Source: Crocinitomix algicola
Lineage (GTDB): Bacteria > Bacteroidota > Bacteroidia > Flavobacteriales_D > Crocinitomicaceae
Length of the DNA: 64,000 bases
Reading direction: 5' to 3'
Assembly: GCF_001661595.2 (NCBI RefSeq)
Contig: NZ_LYPF02000002.1
Coordinates: 186,001 to 250,000, forward strand
The notes below the pieces were generated by a model that made no database searches, was not told the DNA's origin, and saw only the letters and a list, made by a program, of their open reading frames with translations. Made by a program: the position numbers and the translations under genes. Below, piece after piece: positions 32,812-42,776 of this stretch; within the stretch, counting starts at the first letter, position 1; every line of letters starts with the position of its first letter.

Positions 32812-33315
32812 ATGAAAGGGTATTTGATTTTAATTAGCCTATTTTTCTCTTTTTGTGCTAATGCGCAGAGAGATTCAAGTTCTGCCTATGATCAAATGCT
32901 ACAAGAACATTACGAGTTTTCTGTTCCTTTCATTTATCCAGACGAGTTATATCATCGAATAACAACAGGAGCTAAAGTTGTTTTGTTGGATACGCGTGAA
33001 CAAAAAGAATTTGAAATTTCAACAATTCAAGGCGCGCAGCAAGTAGGATTTCTCTTTTATTCTAAAAAGCGTGTTGAAAGTCTTAACAAAAACGATTTAA
33101 TTGTTGTTTATTGTACCATAGGCGCGCGCAGTGAGACTATTGGGGAACGACTAGTTAAGGCAGGGTATACTAATGTTTATAATTTGTACGGAGGGTTGAT
33201 TCATTGGAAAAATATGGGGTACCCAGTGTATAATAATGGTGTAGAAACAAAGAATGTCCATGTTTATTCAAAAAAATGGGAACTCTGGTTAGAAAAAGGT
33301 AATCCCGTATATTAA
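32812..33315 (+). CDS. Exported rhodanese-like protein
   Basis: Signal peptide with cleavage likely at ANA-QR (residue 19), then one rhodanese domain: LLDTREQKEFEISTIQGA and the active-site loop YCTIGARSETIG with Cys101. The loop matches sulfurtransferases rather than Cdc25-like phosphatases. Being exported, it would handle sulfur or selenium in the periplasm. A C-terminal extension (NVHVYSKKWELWLEKGNPVY) follows the domain. Coupled to the next gene by a 1-base TAATG overlap. Confidence 0.88.
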   Translation: MKGYLILISLFFSFCANAQRDSSSAYDQMLQEHYEFSVPFIYPDELYHRITTGAKVVLLDTREQKEFEISTIQGAQQVGFLFYSKKRVESLNKNDLIVVYCTIGARSETIGERLVKAGYTNVYNLYGGLIHWKNMGYPVYNNGVETKNVHVYSKKWELWLEKGNPVY

Positions 33316-33929
33316 TGAAAGAAAATTTGTTAATCGTTTTTGCGAAGAATAAAATTAAAGGTAAGGCTAAAACTCGGCTGGCAAAGTCAATTGGTCAAGA
33401 TGGTGCGGATGAGGTGTATACTTATTTATATCATTTAACTGAACGAGAATCAGAGGGGGTAAGCAATGCGGATGTACAAGTGCATTTTTCGAATTTTGAT
33501 GACCTAGACGCTTGGGGAAATAGTGAGCACTTTTTACAAGCTGGAGAAACGCTGGGAGACCGTATGAAAGGAGCTTTTTTAGAAGGTTTTGAGCGAGGAT
33601 ATAAGCGTATAATTGGAATTGGAGCAGACTTGCCCGATATTAATTCTGAACTATTGTCGAAAGCTTTTGAAATTTTGAAGAATAATGATTTTATTTTTGG
33701 ACCTGCTGCAGACGGAGGTTATTATTTGATTGGTTTACAGTCTAAAGAAAATCTATTTGTTTTTGATAATAAACCTTGGAGCACTGATGCTTTATTAAAA
33801 GTTACGGTAGAAGAGGTGCGGTCAAAAAATAAAAGTCTATCAAAATTGCCCGAGAAAAATGATATCGACACTTTAGAAGATTTAAGAGGTTCGAATATCG
33901 CTGATTTATTTTCCCATTTGTATTCGTAG
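33315..33929 (+). CDS. TIGR04282/DUF2064 family nucleotide-sugar-transferase-like protein
   Basis: A GT-A-like fold: LLIVFAKNKIKGKAKTRLAKSIG, GETLGDRMKGAFLEGF, GIGADLPDINSELL and GPAADGGYYLIGL. These are the marks of the family annotated as rSAM/selenodomain-associated or arsenosugar-biosynthesis glycosyltransferase. It is cytosolic, 204 residues. In other genomes it clusters with arsM- and arsS-like genes; none is in this window, so the substrate is open. The next gene is convergent, so the operon ends here. Confidence 0.85.
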   Translation: MKENLLIVFAKNKIKGKAKTRLAKSIGQDGADEVYTYLYHLTERESEGVSNADVQVHFSNFDDLDAWGNSEHFLQAGETLGDRMKGAFLEGFERGYKRIIGIGADLPDINSELLSKAFEILKNNDFIFGPAADGGYYLIGLQSKENLFVFDNKPWSTDALLKVTVEEVRSKNKSLSKLPEKNDIDTLEDLRGSNIADLFSHLYS

Positions 33930-33936
33930 CTCCGCT

Positions 33937-34440
33937 TTATTCAACCAAGTAATTTTCAAATTTCTGTTGAGCGGTTCTAGAGAATAGTCCCCATTTCATT
34001 AAACTCAGGTAAGGGTAAGAATGAATGTAAGCCCCATCTTTGTCTATTTTCAAGAGTAGTTTCGCTTCGTTTAAACTATCATAACCAATTAAAGCCTTAG
34101 TAAACTCAGGTGTACCAATTTCTCCCCAAACGTAATTTGAAGAATCCCTTAAAAAAGTGAGTAGACTATCATTGTAGTCGAAGTTTATTTTTTGTCGATT
34201 GAAAGGAAAATTTAAATTAAAAAGGTAGAAGGTTTGAAGCTGTTTGGGTAAATTGATTTGTTTTGTTTGATCCATTTCAATTGACGTTTGATAATTGTCT
34301 TTTTCAACAATTTCAGCAGAGTGAAACTCAAATTGCGGGTCGCCATTAATAAACTGTGGTAACGTGAAATACCGATAAAGAATAATTGCAGCGTAAACAA
34401 CTATAATAGTAAGACTTGCTCTTAGTGTAAAGCGATTCAT
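33937..34440 (-). CDS. Single-pass membrane protein, unknown function
   Basis: Started at ATG 34440 (MNRFTLRASLTIIVVYAAIILYRYF), giving 167 residues: one N-terminal membrane helix and an extracytoplasmic domain with many Phe and Tyr (QTFYLFNLNFPFNRQKINFDYND). No known family seen. It is last in the minus-strand series after the MbnP-like gene (70-base gap) and might be part of that unit. Confidence 0.55.
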   Translation of the reverse strand: MNRFTLRASLTIIVVYAAIILYRYFTLPQFINGDPQFEFHSAEIVEKDNYQTSIEMDQTKQINLPKQLQTFYLFNLNFPFNRQKINFDYNDSLLTFLRDSSNYVWGEIGTPEFTKALIGYDSLNEAKLLLKIDKDGAYIHSYPYLSLMKWGLFSRTAQQKFENYLVE

Positions 34441-34510
34441 ACGGGTGAAAATAATGAAAAACGCAAACACATAGAAAAAGTGTTTGCGTTTAAAAAGTGT
34501 TTTTTACTAT

Positions 34511-35263
34511 TTATTCTGTAATTGATATTGAACTTTGAAAATTATCACTCAGTTTAATTGTTAGGTGTTCATCTTCCGCTGCTCCATGGTAAAAAGGCGT
34601 TTCACTAATAATTATTTCATTGCCTGGATTGTCGAGAAGCTTTTTTAAGTCTATATTAAAATTTAGTGTATTAGCTGATTTTTTGTCTATCTCAAAGTTG
34701 TGATTGAGGTTCAGTGTCCTGTAGCTAACATTATAGCCGGTATGATAAGCAAATGTTCCATCAATTGTTCCGTCGCCATCTGAATCATAACGACCTTCAG
34801 CCATCACAAACCTATATTTGCCTACCCATCCCCAGTAGGTGTTTTGAGTAGTACTCAATGGGTGACCATCTTCGGCGTAATTTGAAGGATCTGCATCATT
34901 CAAAGTTGCTTTAACACCAATTCCAAAACTTATTTTTTCGTAATTACCATGAGGCACTTTAAAATCGAGATTTGCAATACCATTCGAATTAAATTTGAAA
35001 AGTTCTATTTCACTTATGAGTCGTTTTTCACCATCAGAATTGTGTATTTCAATATCAGAAAGATAAAACTGAAACAATTCATAAGTAATTTCAACACCCA
35101 AATCGTTTTTGTATGAATCTCCTATACCATAATCGGTTCCATTCACAGTCGTCTGAAAACTAATCTTAAGGTCAGAATTTAATTTAGTACCGCTTTTTTT
35201 ACATCCTGTAATGAACGTAAAACCAATAATTGCGAAAACTAGAATTAACGATTTATCTCTCAT
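34511..35263 (-). CDS. MbnP-like copper-binding-family lipoprotein
   Basis: Lipobox FITGC (Cys21). The body matches the MbnP family: LKISFQTTVNGTDY, a beta-rich core, NTYWGWVGKYRFVMAEG and FAYHTGYN, with His and Trp residues at the places where MbnP and its relatives MopE and CorA hold copper. In methanotrophs MbnP pairs with the diheme protein MbnH, which oxidises a Trp to kynurenine. No mbnH-like gene is adjacent here. Probably faces the periplasm or cell surface. Copper binding is inferred from family membership. Confidence 0.8.
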   Translation of the reverse strand: MRDKSLILVFAIIGFTFITGCKKSGTKLNSDLKISFQTTVNGTDYGIGDSYKNDLGVEITYELFQFYLSDIEIHNSDGEKRLISEIELFKFNSNGIANLDFKVPHGNYEKISFGIGVKATLNDADPSNYAEDGHPLSTTQNTYWGWVGKYRFVMAEGRYDSDGDGTIDGTFAYHTGYNVSYRTLNLNHNFEIDKKSANTLNFNIDLKKLLDNPGNEIIISETPFYHGAAEDEHLTIKLSDNFQSSISITE

Positions 35264-35320
35264 GCCTTTAATTTTAATTTCAGGAGCTAAAAAATAATTC
35301 TCAACTCCTGAAATGTATCA

Positions 35321-35710
35321 TTACTCTTCGAAATGAAGCATTATTTTAGTTGTAGCAGATTTATCTTCTGCGTCTATAACGGTGAAGTGAATCCAAGCCA
35401 TCATAGGAGCTTCTTCAGGAACTGTAAAATGTTCGTGAAATTCAAAACTTGATTCATCAGTTGTTCCTGTTTCCATAAAGTTGATCGTTTCGTTATGATT
35501 TCCATCTTCATCACCTACCATTACAGTGTAGTTTTTTAAAGCTCTGTCATCTTCAAACGTTGCTTCAATATGCACAGTTTCTCCCCATTTTAAATCGCTG
35601 TGGTTAGCAGGAGAACTTACCGTAATAGTCGGATCCTCTTTGTCTTTCTTACAAGACGTAAATCCAATTAAAAGAGTTAGTGTGCTGAGTATTATTATTG
35701 TTTTTTTCAT
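35321..35710 (-). CDS. DUF4625 lipoprotein
   Basis: Lipobox GFTSC (Cys20) followed by KKDKEDPTITVSSPANHSDL, an Ig/CARDB-like beta sandwich. One face carries His and Met (NFMETGTTDESSFEFHEHFTV, MMAWIHFTV), compatible with metal binding. DUF4625 proteins are frequent in Bacteroidota beside MbnP-like proteins. It starts 6 bases after the stop of the outer-membrane gene and is clearly co-transcribed. Confidence 0.78.
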   Translation of the reverse strand: MKKTIIILSTLTLLIGFTSCKKDKEDPTITVSSPANHSDLKWGETVHIEATFEDDRALKNYTVMVGDEDGNHNETINFMETGTTDESSFEFHEHFTVPEEAPMMAWIHFTVIDAEDKSATTKIMLHFEE

Positions 35711-35716
35711 TTTAAT

Positions 35717-36676
35717 TTATTTTAAGTTGTAGGTAACACCTACGTTTAATTTTGATTTAGTTAAGAGTTGCGAAAATCCATTTAGTTCGGATGATACTGC
35801 ATGTTGATACTCGCCAAAAAGAACGAGTTTTTTAAAGAAAAATTGCATGCCCATGTTGGCAAAAATAATCTGTCCGCCTGTATTATCGTATAGCGTTTTT
35901 TCATTGTAAAAGGCGGTATAGCTTGCATCTTTTAATGCTAATTCTGTACTCGATCCAGCAAGAATTCGTATGGTTGATTTATTAATCTTAAAATCATTAA
36001 ATAGGTTGACAGAACCGTTGATTACAGTTCCGTATCGATAATTTAAATGATCTTTTCCATTTAGTTTAACATTAGAGATTGCATTGAGGCCAAATGAGTT
36101 GATTTTAAATCCATAAGAAATATAAGACACCATGTCCCAACTCCCGCTTCCAGGTTGTAGGTCTAAATTCGGTGTTCCTTGTTCGTACTTAAGGTTTGTT
36201 TTACCAACAGGCAATTTTACACCAATACCAACCATAACACGTTGAGAGAATTTACTTGCTCCTGTGTCCTTTTTTGTATTGTACAGTTGATAGGATTGCA
36301 TGAGGATTGGGTCGCCAATATTACGTATTAAATAGCGCTGTTTATCATCAATGATTTGCTGATTATTCACAATAGGAATGATAACCGTTGTTTTCCAACG
36401 TTCTTTAAAATAGTAATTTCCTCTAAACTCAAATGTTTGAAAAATTTCTTGTACGTCGTTGCCCCATAAAGCAGGATCATTACCATGGCCAGCATGCATT
36501 ACACTTGTCATCTCTCCAAAAAAATCATAAGCTCCGTACATCAAACGGTGACGCATATATAAGCCAATAGAATTTTTATAATCGTTTGGGGATTGACTTA
36601 AATATACATTGCAGTTGTCACAAGCAAATCCGACAAACGAAATCATGAGCAATGCGCTCATTACTAATTGTTTCAT
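35717..36676 (-). CDS. Outer-membrane beta-barrel protein with N-terminal CxxC
   Basis: Signal peptide MKQLVMSALLMISFVGFA, then CDNCN at the mature N-terminus (Cys19, Cys22), a His/Met-rich stretch (MTSVMHAGHGNDP) and about a dozen amphipathic beta strands ending in an aromatic-poor NVGVTYNLK. Repeated 'VGIGVKLPVGKTNLKYEQGTPNLDLQPGSGSWD' type loops are common in transporter-like outer-membrane proteins of unknown substrate. With its MbnP and DUF4625 neighbours it suggests metal passage or sensing; no plug domain of a TonB receptor is present. Confidence 0.7.
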   Translation of the reverse strand: MKQLVMSALLMISFVGFACDNCNVYLSQSPNDYKNSIGLYMRHRLMYGAYDFFGEMTSVMHAGHGNDPALWGNDVQEIFQTFEFRGNYYFKERWKTTVIIPIVNNQQIIDDKQRYLIRNIGDPILMQSYQLYNTKKDTGASKFSQRVMVGIGVKLPVGKTNLKYEQGTPNLDLQPGSGSWDMVSYISYGFKINSFGLNAISNVKLNGKDHLNYRYGTVINGSVNLFNDFKINKSTIRILAGSSTELALKDASYTAFYNEKTLYDNTGGQIIFANMGMQFFFKKLVLFGEYQHAVSSELNGFSQLLTKSKLNVGVTYNLK

Positions 36677-36744
36677 TGTTTTTTACAATAAGTTTTTTAT
36701 TAAATGTTTGATCATGTAATCATCCTTGATTACTGGTGTAAAAC

Positions 36745-37131
36745 TTATTTGAAATCGGGAGGGGAATAAACTGTAGATAAATATCCAGTCAAAAGTTGGG
36801 TATTATTTGAAGAGAAATCTGTTTTGTAATTAACTTTAGTAAATATTTTATCCGAAGTCGAATTAAAAAAGGCAAATAAAATTAAGCCAGACTTAACTAT
36901 TTTCGAATTTGCTAAGTTTTTATTCTGATCAGGATTAGTTTTTGTTAATTGCTCTTTTAAATGACATTTTCCTTTACAATTCAACGCTGGTTTATCTTTG
37001 TTGATACAATGCTCGGCAGTAATGCTGTCTTGATAGAAATAGAAATGAACAACCGTTAGAGTTTGCCAAAGAGTACCTACAAAAATACCCATCACCAATA
37101 ATAAACTGATATATGTACGCAATTGATTCAT
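36745..37131 (-). CDS. Membrane-anchored protein with Cx8CxxxC motif (NCKGKCHL)
   Basis: Start at ATG 37131, giving 128 residues. One N-terminal helix (YISLLLVMGIFVGTLWQTLTVV) is followed by EHCINKDKPALNCKGKCHL, a three-cysteine motif found in many short Bacteroidota proteins encoded next to outer-membrane metal-related genes. The rest is low in charge and variable. First gene of the putative metal operon; an exact -7 element TAAATTTG lies 6 nt before the ATG. A thiol metal site is inferred. Confidence 0.7.
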   Translation of the reverse strand: MNQLRTYISLLLVMGIFVGTLWQTLTVVHFYFYQDSITAEHCINKDKPALNCKGKCHLKEQLTKTNPDQNKNLANSKIVKSGLILFAFFNSTSDKIFTKVNYKTDFSSNNTQLLTGYLSTVYSPPDFK

Positions 37132-37137
37132 TTTTGG

Positions 37138-37145
37138 CAAATTTA
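37138..37145 (-). promoter_or_regulatory. -7 element of the MbnP-type operon
   Basis: TAAATTTG on the minus strand (37145-37138), exact consensus, ending 6 nt before ATG 37131. It predicts a leaderless message. No clear -33 element. Confidence 0.5.
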
Positions 37146-37218
37146 AGATATTCCAAAGGCTTTTGATTTAAAATTGTAAAAATTAGTTAAATTGTCAATC
37201 AAAGTAAAAGCAAGCAGA

Positions 37219-37488
37219 ATGAAAGTTACAATTTTCTCAATTTTAGTTTTTGGATTTATAAGTTGCTCTGTTTTTAAACGTGCTGCGTTGAAATACTGGA
37301 CAAGCCACCAAGTTGAGGAATTTATTAAAAATTGTGAGACAAATGCCAGCAAAATAATAGCAGAAGATAAAGCAATGAATTTTTGTGATTGTGCAGTTGA
37401 TGTGGTAGCGAAAGAATATCCTAACTATACAGATCTCCAGAATACCCCAATTAAAAAGATCATTTCAATCGCAAAATCTTGTCAATAA
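37219..37488 (+). CDS. Small cysteine-containing lipoprotein
   Basis: Start at ATG 37219 (an upstream TTG at 37192 is less likely). Lipobox GFISC (Cys16). The 89-residue protein continues with VEEFIKNCETNAS and NFCDCAVDVVAKEYPNY and ends KSCQ, a spacing of cysteines seen in a recurring Bacteroidota domain of unknown function. Divergent from the metal operon, sharing the intergenic region, so a functional link is possible. Confidence 0.6.
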   Translation: MKVTIFSILVFGFISCSVFKRAALKYWTSHQVEEFIKNCETNASKIIAEDKAMNFCDCAVDVVAKEYPNYTDLQNTPIKKIISIAKSCQ

Positions 37489-38091: not shown

Positions 38092-39030
38092 TTAAAGACG
38101 CTCAAATAAGGCATCAACAAAATACGATTTTTTGTCTTTGAATTGTGCTTTCAATTTAAAGCCATGCTTTGAGAATAATTCATTTAATTCCTCCATATCA
38201 TATTTTTTCGATAATTCTGTCCAAATACATTCTCCAGCTTCGAAAGTATACAGTTGATTTAATCCCTCGATTTTCACGACCTGATCAATTAGACTCACTA
38301 AGTAACTTCTGACTTCGCCAGTTTCAGGACTATAAGAAACATAAAAATCAAAATTTTCTAGTTCGAAGTTCCCTTTAAGCTCTGAATTAATTCTCTTCAA
38401 TAAATTTAAGTTGAATCGTTTCGTTATGCCGTGAGGATCATCGTAAGCATTTAAAATTGTTTTCGGATGCTTTTTAAGGTCGACTCCAACTAAGATTTGA
38501 TCTCCAACTTTCATTGTTTCTTGCAAGAGTTCAAGTAAACTATGAAGAGCAATTTTTGAATAATTTCCAATATTGCTTCCAATGAAAAGAAGTAAGACAG
38601 GCTTTTTTTCCTTTTTTATTTTTTTTAATACTTCAAAATAGTCTCCTGTTGCGGGGTTAATTTTAAGGTAGGGCAGGTTCTGGGACATTTTTTCTTGCAA
38701 GATATCGTTAGCTTCTTGCGATATGTCTATCGGTCGATAGGTGAATTTATTTGAGTTTTTTAGGAATTGGCGCAATAAAATTTCTGTTTTTGCTCCGTCA
38801 CCTGCACCGAGTTCCAAGATGCTAAATTCTTCAGTGAATCCAAGAGATTTATAGATCAATTGAGATTGCGATTCGAAAATTTCCATTTCGCTATTTGTCA
38901 AGTAGTATTCTGGCATAGCCATAATTTCTTGAAATATGCGACTTCCATTATCATCATAAAAATACATTGATGATAACTGTTTTTGTTTTTTACTCAGTCC
39001 TTCTTTAACGTGATTGGCGAATGTGCTCAT
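38092..39030 (-). CDS. egtD: L-histidine N-alpha-methyltransferase EgtD
   Basis: Trimethylates histidine to hercynine with three SAM, the first step of ergothioneine synthesis. The N-terminus LSSMYFYDDNGSRIFQEIMAMPEYYLT is a typical EgtD motif; ELGAGDGAKT (73-82) binds SAM, followed by RPIDIS and FIGSNIGNYS. The 312 residues are full length. Last gene in a DUF427-egtB-egtD operon with a 3-base gap to egtB. Confidence 0.96.
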   Translation of the reverse strand: MSTFANHVKEGLSKKQKQLSSMYFYDDNGSRIFQEIMAMPEYYLTNSEMEIFESQSQLIYKSLGFTEEFSILELGAGDGAKTEILLRQFLKNSNKFTYRPIDISQEANDILQEKMSQNLPYLKINPATGDYFEVLKKIKKEKKPVLLLFIGSNIGNYSKIALHSLLELLQETMKVGDQILVGVDLKKHPKTILNAYDDPHGITKRFNLNLLKRINSELKGNFELENFDFYVSYSPETGEVRSYLVSLIDQVVKIEGLNQLYTFEAGECIWTELSKKYDMEELNELFSKHGFKLKAQFKDKKSYFVDALFERL

Positions 39031-39033
39031 CTT

Positions 39034-40185
39034 TTATTTTACTAATCTAATTCCTGAAAAATGCCACCTTAATTGCGGGTTAAAAAAATTGCGATAAGTA
39101 TTTCTTGAGTGTCCTGGAATGGTAGCGATAGACCCACCTCTTAGCACTTGTTGATTGACCATAAATTTGCCATTATACTCTCCAATTGCTCCTTTCTCAG
39201 TTTTAAACCGGGGATAGGATTGATAAGCACTGCTTGTCCACTCCCATACTTGTCCCCATTTAAAAAGATGCTGAGAAACTTCCCATTCAAACTCCGTTGG
39301 AAGACGCATTTTCTTCCAATTCGCAAATGCAAAAGCTTCGTAATATGAAATATGACTGACAGGTAGATTTTTATCTATTTTATCAAAACCTTTATAATCA
39401 TACGAAAACCATTGGCCTTTTTTCTTGTACCAATATAATGGGGCGTTAATATTATGGGTATTTATAAAGTTCCACCCATCGGCATGCCATAACTCAAACT
39501 TTTTATACCCATCATCTTTCATGAATTCTAAATATTCGCCGCAAGTGACGAGTCGGTTAGAAATTTCAAATTCTTCCAGATAAACTTTGTGTTTTCCATG
39601 TTCGTTGTCAAAAGAAAAGCCGTTTCCATCATAACCAATTTGATAAATTCCCGCATTTATTTTTGCAAACTCTTGTTTAACTTCTTCTGATGAAAAACGA
39701 ATATTTGTTTGATATGTCGGGAAGTACGGTTGATTTCCTAGTATGTACTTGATATCATACATAAGCAATTCTTGATGTTGTTCTTCATGATTTATTCCTA
39801 GTTCAATTATTGACTTTAGGTCACTATTATAATCTGTTTCCAGGAATTCAATCATGGCGCTTGTAACATATTCCCGATACCTATAAATTTCTTTTACAGT
39901 TGGTCTCGTCATTAATCCTCTATTTGGCCGCAGAACTCGATCTCCAACTGTATTATAATAACTGTTAAATAGGTAAGCGAATCGCTCATTATAAACGCTG
40001 TAATTTTTCGCGTGGGGAACTAAGACAAATTGTTCAAAAAACCACGTTGTGTGGGCAAGATGCCATTTTGGAGGGGAAACATCAACAATAGGTTGAACGG
40101 AGTAGTCCTCGATTTCGAGGTGCTCGCATCTTTTTTCAGAGTTTTCCCGCGTATGGATGAACTTTTTAAGAAGGTTATTATGCAT
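39034..40185 (-). CDS. egtB: Ergothioneine sulfoxide synthase EgtB
   Basis: Non-heme iron enzyme that joins hercynine with a thiol substrate and O2 to a sulfoxide. The DinB-like domain carries WHLAH (His45) and NHEEQHQE (His133 and His137), the three-His iron site. The C-terminal formylglycine-generating-enzyme-like domain shows MRLPTEFEWE, VWEWTSSAY, LRGGS and RNFFNPQLRWHFSGIRL. At 383 residues it is shorter than the mycobacterial enzyme (about 430). Whether it takes cysteine or gamma-glutamylcysteine cannot be decided, but no egtA or egtC is nearby. Confidence 0.95.
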   Translation of the reverse strand: MHNNLLKKFIHTRENSEKRCEHLEIEDYSVQPIVDVSPPKWHLAHTTWFFEQFVLVPHAKNYSVYNERFAYLFNSYYNTVGDRVLRPNRGLMTRPTVKEIYRYREYVTSAMIEFLETDYNSDLKSIIELGINHEEQHQELLMYDIKYILGNQPYFPTYQTNIRFSSEEVKQEFAKINAGIYQIGYDGNGFSFDNEHGKHKVYLEEFEISNRLVTCGEYLEFMKDDGYKKFELWHADGWNFINTHNINAPLYWYKKKGQWFSYDYKGFDKIDKNLPVSHISYYEAFAFANWKKMRLPTEFEWEVSQHLFKWGQVWEWTSSAYQSYPRFKTEKGAIGEYNGKFMVNQQVLRGGSIATIPGHSRNTYRNFFNPQLRWHFSGIRLVK

Positions 40186-40471: not shown

Positions 40472-40701
40472 TGTATTTTATTTTTTTTAACTAAAAGTAA
40501 GGTTATCTAATCTTTAGTCGGTTGACGGTGGGGGGAATTACAAAAGCATTTCAAATGCTTTAAATGGTCAACATTTTCTTCCAACAATATAATGAAACCT
40601 TTGGTCTTAAGAAAGGAATTGAAGGGTGTTTTTTGAAAATTAACAAAAATTTAAATCCTGATTATTTTTGATTAGGACTGTAAACATTTAACTTTGTGCT
40701 A
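40472..40701. promoter_or_regulatory. Divergent control region with 19-nt palindrome and a strong plus-strand promoter
   Basis: AAAGCATTTCAAATGCTTT (40543-40561) is a perfect palindrome of 9-bp arms around one base. Further right, TTTG (40667-40670), 18 nt, TAACTTTG (40689-40696) is a full-consensus promoter ending 5 nt before ATG 40702. The palindrome lies between the egt operon and the SulP locus and is a candidate operator. Confidence 0.55.
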
Positions 40702-41040
40702 ATGCCAGAACAAAGTAAAATAGGAATGAGTAGTGACCTTTTAGGTATAAAGAGGTTATTTGTTTCTTATTTGTTTTACTTTTTTTTATTGCAACCGGTA
40801 ATCGGCTTTTTCTATCCAGAATGGAGTAGTCCTCAGGTTTTTCAATTGGTTGAAGAAGAAGATTCAGGCCAAAGTAGAATTTTGGAAGAACGTGTTTGTC
40901 ATAGTTTAGAAGATAACTTTTTAGATTTTAGTTTTGAACAAATTCAATTGAATCATAAGCATCTCTATTTTTATTACATTAGTCTATATCAAGCTTTTAA
41001 AAAAGAAACCCCAAGTCCCCCTCCAGAGTTTATTGTTTAA
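40702..41040 (+). CDS. Short single-pass membrane protein before the SulP transporter
   Basis: 112 residues from ATG 40702. One helix (LFVSYLFYFFLLQPVIGFFY) is followed by an acidic, Gln- and His-containing domain (LVEEEDSGQSRILEERVCHSLEDNF; NHKHLYFYY) and a PPPE tail. I recognise no characterised family. It is followed by a hairpin (41052-41078) and SulP, and the promoter predicts a leaderless message. A role as accessory to SulP is only suggested by adjacency. Confidence 0.5.
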   Translation: MPEQSKIGMSSDLLGIKRLFVSYLFYFFLLQPVIGFFYPEWSSPQVFQLVEEEDSGQSRILEERVCHSLEDNFLDFSFEQIQLNHKHLYFYYISLYQAFKKETPSPPPEFIV

Positions 41041-41168: not shown

Positions 41169-42776
41169 ATGAAAGAGAATAAAAGTTTTTTTTCAAGCTT
41201 AAAGTTTGATTTTGCGGCTGGATTAGTCGTGTTTTTTGTGGCCTTGCCACTATGTTTAGGAATCTCATTAGCTTCAACAAGTTATGCAGAGATGGATGGA
41301 ATGGCCGCTTTTGGTGGTGTTGTTTTTCCAGGATTAATTTCAGGTATTATTGGAGGTATTGTAGTAGGCTCTATAAGTGGATCAAAATTTGGAGTATCAG
41401 GTCCTGCTGCTGGTCTAATTACCATCGTTGCAGCGGCAATAGTTGGATTTGGAGGATTTGATAACGGAGGTTATGAAAAGTTTGTAGTAGCTGTTGCTTT
41501 GGCAGGTGTTATTCAAATTGCATTAGGATTTTTAAAAGCAGGTTTTGTCGCTTATTACGTTCCTTCATCTGTAATAAAGGGGATGTTAGCGGGTATTGGA
41601 ATAACCATTATTATCAAAGAAATTCCACACTTTTTTGGGTATGATAAAGATCCGGAAGGAGATTTAGGTTTTAATCAAGTTGATGGACATAATACTTTTT
41701 CAGAGTTAGGTTATATGATGGATAACGTGCATATCGGAGCAACGCTTATAGCAGTTATTTCAATTGCCATTCTGATTTTTTGGGGAACTAAAATGATTAA
41801 ATCAAATAAAATTTTAGGAATGATTCCTGGTCCACTTGTAGCAATTATCGTTTCAATTTTTGCGGCGTTGTTATTGGTCGATAATCCAGATTTTGCTGTT
41901 TCAGGAGAACATTTGGTATCCGTGCCAACACCAAATGATTTTACTGAGTTTAAAGCTCAATTTTACTTCCCTGATTTCTCGGCTCTATCAGATCCTCAAG
42001 TTTATGTTGTAGCCTTTACCATTGCAATAGTTGCAAGTTTGGAGACTTTATTATGTGTTGAAGCAACTGATAAAATGGACCCTGACAAAGGTCGTACACC
42101 AATGAATTTAGAATTAAAAGCACAAGGATTTGGAAACCTGGCTTCAGGATTATTGGGTGGATTGCCAATCACACAAGTTATTGTTCGTTCAACGGCTAAT
42201 ATGAATGCAGGTGCAAAAACTAAAAAATCAGCAGTTTTGCATGGTGTCTTTTTAATGTCATTTGTAATAGCATTACCTTGGTTATTGAACATGATACCCC
42301 GTGCAACTTTGGCAGCAGTATTAATATTGATAGGTTATAAATTGGCAAGCCCTAAATCGATCGCGGCAATCGTAAAAAGTGGATTTGCGCAGTATTTCCC
42401 ATTTTTCGTTGTTATAATCGTAATGTTACTAACTGATTTGTTGGTTGGAGTTGGAGTAGGATTGGGAGTTGCGTTTTTAATTATCCTGTACAACAACTAT
42501 AAGTTATCTTATTTCGTTGCACCAAAAGAAAATGATGGTATTATTCATTTAGCATTATCGCAGCATGCTACTTTTTTAAACAAAGCGGTTATTGTTAAAA
42601 CATTGGATGAAATTGAAGATGGTAAGTCTGTTGAAATAGATTTAACATTGTGCCATGACATTGATTATGACATTAGAGAAGTGATAATGGAATTTCAAGA
42701 AAGTGCCAAGGATCGAGAAATAAATGTTACGATTATTGACGCTGAAAAATTGAATACAAAGGAGCTAACCAACTAG
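41169..42776 (+). CDS. SulP family inorganic anion transporter
   Basis: 535 residues with the SLC26/SulP core: FDFAAGLVVFFVALPLCLGISLASTS at helix 1, GLISGIIGGIVVGSISGSKFGVSGPAAGL, LAGIGITIIIKEIPHFFG, and GFGNLASGLLGGLPITQVIVRSTANMNAGAKT, followed by a short STAS-like tail (KAVIVKTLDEIEDGKSVEIDLTLCHDIDYDI). These carry sulfate, bicarbonate or other anions; the ALPLCLGI type is frequent beside carbonic anhydrases, so bicarbonate is plausible. No such enzyme is in the window. Confidence 0.92.
   Translation: MKENKSFFSSLKFDFAAGLVVFFVALPLCLGISLASTSYAEMDGMAAFGGVVFPGLISGIIGGIVVGSISGSKFGVSGPAAGLITIVAAAIVGFGGFDNGGYEKFVVAVALAGVIQIALGFLKAGFVAYYVPSSVIKGMLAGIGITIIIKEIPHFFGYDKDPEGDLGFNQVDGHNTFSELGYMMDNVHIGATLIAVISIAILIFWGTKMIKSNKILGMIPGPLVAIIVSIFAALLLVDNPDFAVSGEHLVSVPTPNDFTEFKAQFYFPDFSALSDPQVYVVAFTIAIVASLETLLCVEATDKMDPDKGRTPMNLELKAQGFGNLASGLLGGLPITQVIVRSTANMNAGAKTKKSAVLHGVFLMSFVIALPWLLNMIPRATLAAVLILIGYKLASPKSIAAIVKSGFAQYFPFFVVIIVMLLTDLLVGVGVGLGVAFLIILYNNYKLSYFVAPKENDGIIHLALSQHATFLNKAVIVKTLDEIEDGKSVEIDLTLCHDIDYDIREVIMEFQESAKDREINVTIIDAEKLNTKELTN

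Follow-up and report, generated by a model that had tools for sequence, protein, structure and literature searches.

The methanotroph proteins MbnP and MbnH are among the closest described relatives of the proteins considered here; in work by Manesis et al. (PNAS, 2021), MbnH reportedly converts the first Trp of a WxW sequence to kynurenine, and copper is said to be held by a His and a Met. The copper-repressed proteins MopE and CorA place two His residues and a kynurenine at the copper (PMC3912023), and a survey of 2013 saw no marked similarity of MbnP sequences to MopE/CorA (PMC3621798). A second group of described systems consists of nascent-chain copper sensors. In CruR, copper is sensed via a CXXC motif, a terminal RAPP sequence makes the ribosome stall, and in response to copper Rho ends transcription ahead of the receptor gene (PMC9426467); the arrest was later demonstrated in vitro (PMC12992588). 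The cruR-crtA-crpH order of Bordetella pertussis is that of leader, receptor and PepSY_TM gene (PMC12914433, PMC13038864), and CruR operons in other phyla include MbnPH-like genes (PMC9426467). CutF of Rhodobacter capsulatus has a CxxxC motif, a proline-rich end and a stem-loop, and there copper turns the target, an oxidase, on; 40% (normalised) of CutF-like proteins were assigned to Bacteroidota (PMC9973294). A paper of 2025 found no copper leaders with RAPP/RGPP in Bacteroidota (PMC12992588). The present analysis concerns a four-gene operon of Crocinitomix algicola, headed by a gene for a small protein, NCK, in a 64,000-nucleotide stretch of contig NZ_LYPF02000002.1 (positions 186,001 to 250,000; "the window").

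We put at about 0.6 the probability that this is a copper-handling operon of a Crocinitomix-type bacterium with a copper-sensing leader as its first gene. Four minus-strand open reading frames (ORFs) at 34511-37131 encode NCK, an outer-membrane barrel (BAR), a DUF4625 lipoprotein and an MbnP lipoprotein. This envelope operon is conserved across Bacteroidota and, judged by family membership and neighbourhood, most likely handles copper.

The NCK gene (36745-37131) encodes 128 amino acids from its ATG, with a hydrophobic N-terminal stretch read by eye, C42, the sequence CKGKC at residues 52-56 (codons at 36964-36978) and the end YSPPDFK, whose Pro-Pro (codons 124-125, 36757-36762) stands 3 residues ahead of the stop. 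In 43 aligned members only C42, C52, G54, C56, P124 and P125 were invariant. Cys motif and tail were the best kept (mean pairwise identity 0.54 and 0.52), followed by the N-terminal part (0.21) and the linker (0.11). The distance from Cys motif to Pro-Pro was 63-75 residues in all 43 aligned members and 61-75 residues in 75 of 76 NCK ORFs; the outlier, with a spacing of 98, is in our opinion a false motif in locus L167. A Pro-Pro 1-8 residues ahead of the stop was found in 76/77 NCK ORFs versus 11/1066 other ORFs of the same loci, or 6/219 if these are restricted to ORFs of at most 150 amino acids; in the single exception (L061) an in-frame TAA precedes the Pro-Pro. The NCK profile matched 57 of 148 phylum genomes; twenty further NCK genes taken from these, unused before, all had the CxxxC motif, Pro-Pro 2-7 residues from the end and a spacing of 63-69. 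Across 96 NCK genes all 16 Pro-Pro codon pairs occur, so that the amino acids, not the RNA, appear to be kept. As the distance is kept as well, with the linker letters free, NCK fits a nascent-chain sensor with a ruler, unlike what would be expected of a folded carrier. The NCK gene of L055 lacks the usual start codon and, read by hand, ends FFIPPIYIG; that of L063 is split over two frames. Scans of the 43 members against Pfam and NCBIfam gave no credible family, and the phage, fungal and other one-off matches, each to a single member, were dismissed as chance.

Profile searches located NCK in 69/99 relative genomes, at 89 places, of which 52 were retrieved for neighbourhood reading. Profile labels in these 52 regions included barrel (39), DUF4625 (21), MbnP (37) and diheme peroxidase (16); the MbnP count was lowered to 34 by leaving out L081, a short piece, together with L049 and L050, whose proteins seem to be of YtkA type and wrongly labelled. 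Of 53 NCK ORFs in these regions, 35 were followed on the same strand by BAR, 6 by a gene labelled MbnP (doubtfully so in two cases), 4 by a TonB receptor, 2 by DUF4625 and 6 by some other gene. The usual gene orders were NCK-BAR-(DUF4625)-MbnP-(MbnH) and NCK-MbnP-MbnH-BAR. When the barrel was used as bait across the phylum, 53/148 genomes matched, many via distant barrels alone, and of 33 barrel places (L137-L169), 21 carried the NCK label, 15 the MbnP label and 16 a diheme gene. NCK lay, by eye, near 24 of all 55 MbnP matches; the higher figure of 21/22 for the strongest MbnP hits partly reflects the construction of the A4 set, which also shares genomes with the barrel-bait set. Wider barrel matches starting CCSGG or CSCAG (e.g. 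L153, L157, L160, L163, L164, L166) were not counted, there being no NCK, MbnP or diheme label nearby. Genome G006 gave no NCK match; on its contig the latter half of the barrel gene is joined to an Msr-like sequence, perhaps through a deletion or through faulty assembly.

The genes behind the 20 further NCK loci were a TonB receptor in 12 (one recognised by Pfam, one lying past a small opposite ORF), MbnP with a diheme gene in 2, YtkA in 2, a small gene with DUF2911 in 2, a doubtful MbnP-labelled gene in 1 and an unnamed gene with MbnP and a diheme gene further on in 1; the MbnP label of L209 carries the same YtkA-type doubt as those of L049 and L050. A PepSY_TM gene came after the TonB receptor in 2 of these 20 loci; among the loci retrieved earlier this was so in L062, L066 and L081. 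A second NCK gene of the C. algicola genome itself, on C17 (L031), heads MbnP and a diheme peroxidase with no barrel, and a DsbA/thioredoxin-like gene (PF13743) lies just upstream. In L152, L154, L155 and L165, NCK precedes a barrel variant that carries DGHAPIxVMGDH close to the N-terminus and is followed in L154 by a TonB receptor; this is probably another metal system under a similar leader.

In build, NCK looks like the nascent-chain sensors CruR and CutF, in a different sequence family. With CruR (DUF2946, B. pertussis) it shares small size, probable export, a Cys motif, a Pro-Pro a few residues ahead of the stop, and the first position ahead of a TonB receptor and PepSY_TM or of MbnPH-like genes (PMC9426467, PMC12914433). 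CutF-like proteins were filtered by a length below 150 amino acids, an N-terminal signal peptide, Pro-Pro in the last 15 residues, a next gene on the same strand within at most 1000 nucleotides and a stem-loop ahead of that gene (PMC9973294). NCK, which like CutF has CxxxC, would pass those on length, Pro-Pro and next gene, with 128 amino acids, Pro-Pro 3 residues from its end and a gap of 68 nucleotides to BAR; its N-terminal stretch is hydrophobic by eye. CutF itself needs its stem-loop and activates an oxidase with copper (PMC9973294), whereas NCK is without a clear stem-loop. NCK may already be listed among the CutF-like proteins in the supplement of PMC9973294; a literature search to which that supplementary list was outside gave no account of the NCK family, of the constant distance between its motifs or of a connection with an MbnP/barrel operon. 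The conservation pattern of NCK, together with its first position before copper-type genes, fits a regulatory leader better than a metal carrier. The odds are about even that NCK represents a separate Bacteroidota class of copper-sensing arrest leaders, non-homologous to DUF2946, with a membrane-inserted CxGxC, a length-kept linker and a terminal xHPP, governing several copper systems of the outer membrane, including a module of MbnP and barrel with kynurenine copper sites far from methanotrophs.

The MbnP-family lipoprotein (34511-35263, minus strand) matched PF20243 at 98.1 bits (cut-off 27). Its AlphaFold2 model had a mean pLDDT of 90.7, and the only Foldseek matches with E up to 0.001 were the six chains of 7l6g, MbnP of M. 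trichosporium (best 2.3e-9); comparison of the model with 7l6g (VIA) gave Z 17.6 and rmsd 2.8 over 202 residues, the next row having Z 6.3. A profile of diheme-linked MbnP relatives aligned the WxW and the His with 7l6g (E 1e-7), the alignment ending ahead of position 226. Searching the PDB by sequence with the single MbnP or barrel protein gave nothing; profiles and models alone gave matches. At positions 144, 146, 174 and 226 the window MbnP has W, W, H and H (W144-G-W146 at 34826-34834, H174 at 34742-34744, H226 at 34586-34588). W144, W146 and H174 were present in every one of 35 MbnPs that have a diheme gene in the neighbourhood, with Met (21) or His (14) at position 226. In 16 MbnPs without a diheme neighbour, W144 was kept in 16, W146 in 9 and H174 in 12, and position 226 was His in 12 and Met in 4; this set leaves out L049 and L050, which have no WxW and are likely of YtkA type (an earlier tally had 18). 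The diheme proteins of neighbouring loci had as best PDB match 6e1c, "Di-heme enzyme" (E 1.4e-80), which we take to be MbnH, and in both of those scanned the best NCBIfam match was TIGR04039 ("MbnH family") at 209.5 and 202.4 bits, under the cut-off of 362.85.

The genome of C. algicola has three MbnPs, and the other two, on C17 and C34, each adjoin a diheme gene; as there is no local MbnH, modification of the window MbnP would have to occur in trans. An MbnP of the window type was found in 9/9 genus genomes, and at least two diheme matches in 9/9. The third MbnP (L203, 5803-6759, on C34) carries, by eye, a C-terminal stretch like a type IX secretion sorting domain, and so may work at the cell surface; the MbnPs of L205 and L206 are built like it. 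Compared with MbnP/MbnH (TIGR04052/TIGR04039; M. trichosporium, 7l6g), the window protein is alike in its PF20243 match, fold, WxW and conserved His, and its relatives have a diheme partner beside them. It differs in scoring below the TIGR04052 cut-off, in being a lipoprotein, in having no MbnH in its operon and in its His at position 226, where relatives have Met or His; barrel, DUF4625 and NCK are additions of the window. The likeness to CorA/CorB and MopE of methanotrophs lies in the diheme partner and, if W144, H174 and H226 act as proposed, in a copper site formed by a kynurenine and two His (PMC3912023). By analogy, the H174/H226 pair would be of the CorA/MopE kind, since these proteins use two His and a kynurenine.

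BAR (35717-36676, minus strand, 319 amino acids) lies 68 nucleotides behind NCK (gap 36677-36744) and gave a profile match to FapF (E 6.8e-9). Its model had a pLDDT of 82.7 and 12 long strands, and in Foldseek it matched FapF (5e-11) and COG4313 (4e-8); as modelled, BAR is thus a 12-strand channel of the FapF/COG4313 type. It differs from these in having an N-terminal CDxC in place of the FapF N-terminal region, and in its operon. The mature N-terminus is CDNC (codons at 36611-36622), with C19 invariant in 35/35 relatives and D20 and C22 kept in at least 90%; residues 10-28 are under 50 pLDDT, and CDNC is thus without a modelled position. The DUF4625 lipoprotein (35321-35710, minus strand), an optional member of the operon, matched PF15418 (E 5.6e-11, 43.3 bits, cut-off 27) and carries an FHEH motif; a search of one literature library found no paper on DUF4625.

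An earlier note on this DNA had described four minus-strand genes for exported proteins with metal-type ligands, one of them of the MbnP family, in a neighbourhood that should be conserved. The genes were found where it placed them, the end at 37145 being slightly long (NCK ends at 37131), and the MbnP call holds by the PF20243 score, the 7l6g fold, and the WxW and conserved histidines; the note overlooked the absence of the MbnH partner that is frequent in relatives. The barrel with CDNC was borne out. The His/Met face ascribed to the DUF4625 protein was confirmed in part: FHEH/FHDH recurs in many of 19 members, and there is no invariant His/Met column beyond the start. Lack of co-occurrence, named there as a refutation, was not what was found, as the neighbourhood exceeds chance, and copper is the likely metal by family.

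The proposed mechanism is as follows. NCK would be inserted into the inner membrane during translation. The CxGxC motif (together with C42), about 70 residues ahead of the ribosome active centre, would reach the outside of the translocon and bind Cu(I), while the ribosome pauses at the terminal Pro-Pro; copper binding would alter this pause and so switch the downstream genes. By analogy with CruR, which heads uptake operons, these genes would be on when copper is scarce; CutF acts in the opposite way, so the direction could be either. Their products, as sequence and models show, are the outer-membrane channel, the DUF4625 lipoprotein and MbnP. In MbnP, one Cu(I) would be bound by H174 and H226 beside a kynurenine, into which W144 would be converted by an MbnH from another part of the genome; the barrel, whose CDxC would face the periplasm, may pass copper or a small copper ligand through the outer membrane.

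Several observations weigh against this interpretation. CruR has CXXC, RAPP and a spacing of 45, NCK CxGxC, mostly FHPP and a spacing of about 67. PF11162 (DUF2946) was not among the matches of the 43 NCK members, and it occurs in only 5/148 phylum genomes (2 over cut-off) and not in the window's genome; a profile comparison with three ORFs, one of them in a wrong frame, gave nothing and is of too low quality to carry weight. The NCK-BAR gap of the window showed a possible hairpin round the NCK stop that was not significant against 200 shuffles (z -1.01 and -1.47; 28 and 18 shuffles folded at least equally well). Gap RNA was slightly more structured than control gaps (mean z -1.84 vs -1.21, p 0.002; -1.01 vs -0.54, p 0.008; 74 vs 120 pairs), a small excess with p values uncorrected for relatedness of the loci. 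The evidence for a conserved hairpin between NCK and the next gene being weak, that claim was dropped. Some NCK genes stand first in operons without a recognised connection to copper (DUF2911, L212/L214), and the receptors behind NCK are taken as copper-type from their neighbourhood. The window MbnP scores 39.1 bits against TIGR04052 (MbnP family copper-binding protein; cut-off 140), with the diheme-linked relatives L031 and L036 likewise at 38; position 226 is a presumptive copper ligand by conservation, and the operon is without an MbnH gene.

This last point is also the starting point of one alternative, that the window MbnP has lost its copper role and, without a local MbnH, is retained for a different reason as an unmodified lipoprotein of the envelope. 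Where the diheme neighbour is missing, MbnPs do lose W146 in 7/16 and H174 in 4/16 cases, but the window MbnP retains W144, W146, H174 and H226, and the genus genomes all carry both the window-type MbnP and diheme matches, so that we consider such a loss improbable. It is equally improbable that the operon serves another metal, such as iron, zinc or nickel, with NCK a leader sensing that metal. For the TonB receptors that follow other NCK genes, the best-scoring models are those of siderophore and heme receptors, none of them reaching its cut-off, and leaders thought to serve nickel or cobalt are listed in the CutF paper (PMC9973294); against this, the MbnP fold, the WxW and the MbnH link indicate a kynurenine Cu(I) site, and YtkA and PepSY_TM recur as neighbours of NCK. 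Slightly better placed, and still unlikely, is the view of the earlier note, with NCK as a stable metallochaperone or thiol protein of the inner membrane that gives copper to, or takes it from, the barrel and MbnP. CxxxC occurs commonly as a Cu(I) motif, and NCK shares operons with MbnP and the barrel. However, the 60-75 residues past the motif are near random yet fixed in length, the strongest other conservation is the Pro-Pro beside the stop, and NCK also heads unrelated receptor operons without barrel or MbnP. Of the earlier interpretation, the exported metal-type proteins, copper as the likely metal, MbnP and the conserved neighbourhood stand; the relay role of the NCKGKC protein probably gives way to that of a leader, and the statement that the set has no characterised equivalent does not survive the comparison with MbnP/MbnH, CorA/CorB and the CruR/CutF leaders, which are characterised relatives or analogues.

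Some other features of the window lie near the operon. The gene behind MbnP (33937-34470) gave no family in Pfam and NCBIfam scans, nor did a small Cys-containing lipoprotein-like ORF of 98 amino acids divergent from NCK (37192-37488, plus strand); ORFs of 92-98 amino acids stand at the equivalent position in several Crocinitomix loci. At 32812-33929 (plus strand) are a rhodanese (NF045521) and a TIGR04282 "arsenosugar biosynthesis glycosyltransferase", both above cut-off, and at 38092-40185 (minus strand) two genes that by eye resemble ergothioneine synthesis (EgtD-like and EgtB-like). A 114-residue ORF ending PSPPPEFIV (40696-41040, plus strand) lies 128 nucleotides ahead of a gene for a transporter of SulP type, by eye (41169-42776), and may be a second, different leader ORF; L058 and L063 have similar ORFs with a terminal PPPE. 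Rfam at the gathering threshold found one tRNA only in the whole window, and an RNA switch as controller was rejected.

Copper uptake and sensing in Bacteroidota is a little-known field, and nascent-chain copper control has so far been worked out in other bacterial groups only. If the interpretation given here is true, one small gene family marks copper systems throughout the phylum, and nascent-chain metal sensing would extend to a large group in which RAPP-type copper leaders were reported to be lacking (PMC12992588). Kynurenine-type copper proteins would then also be placed in common aquatic bacteria.

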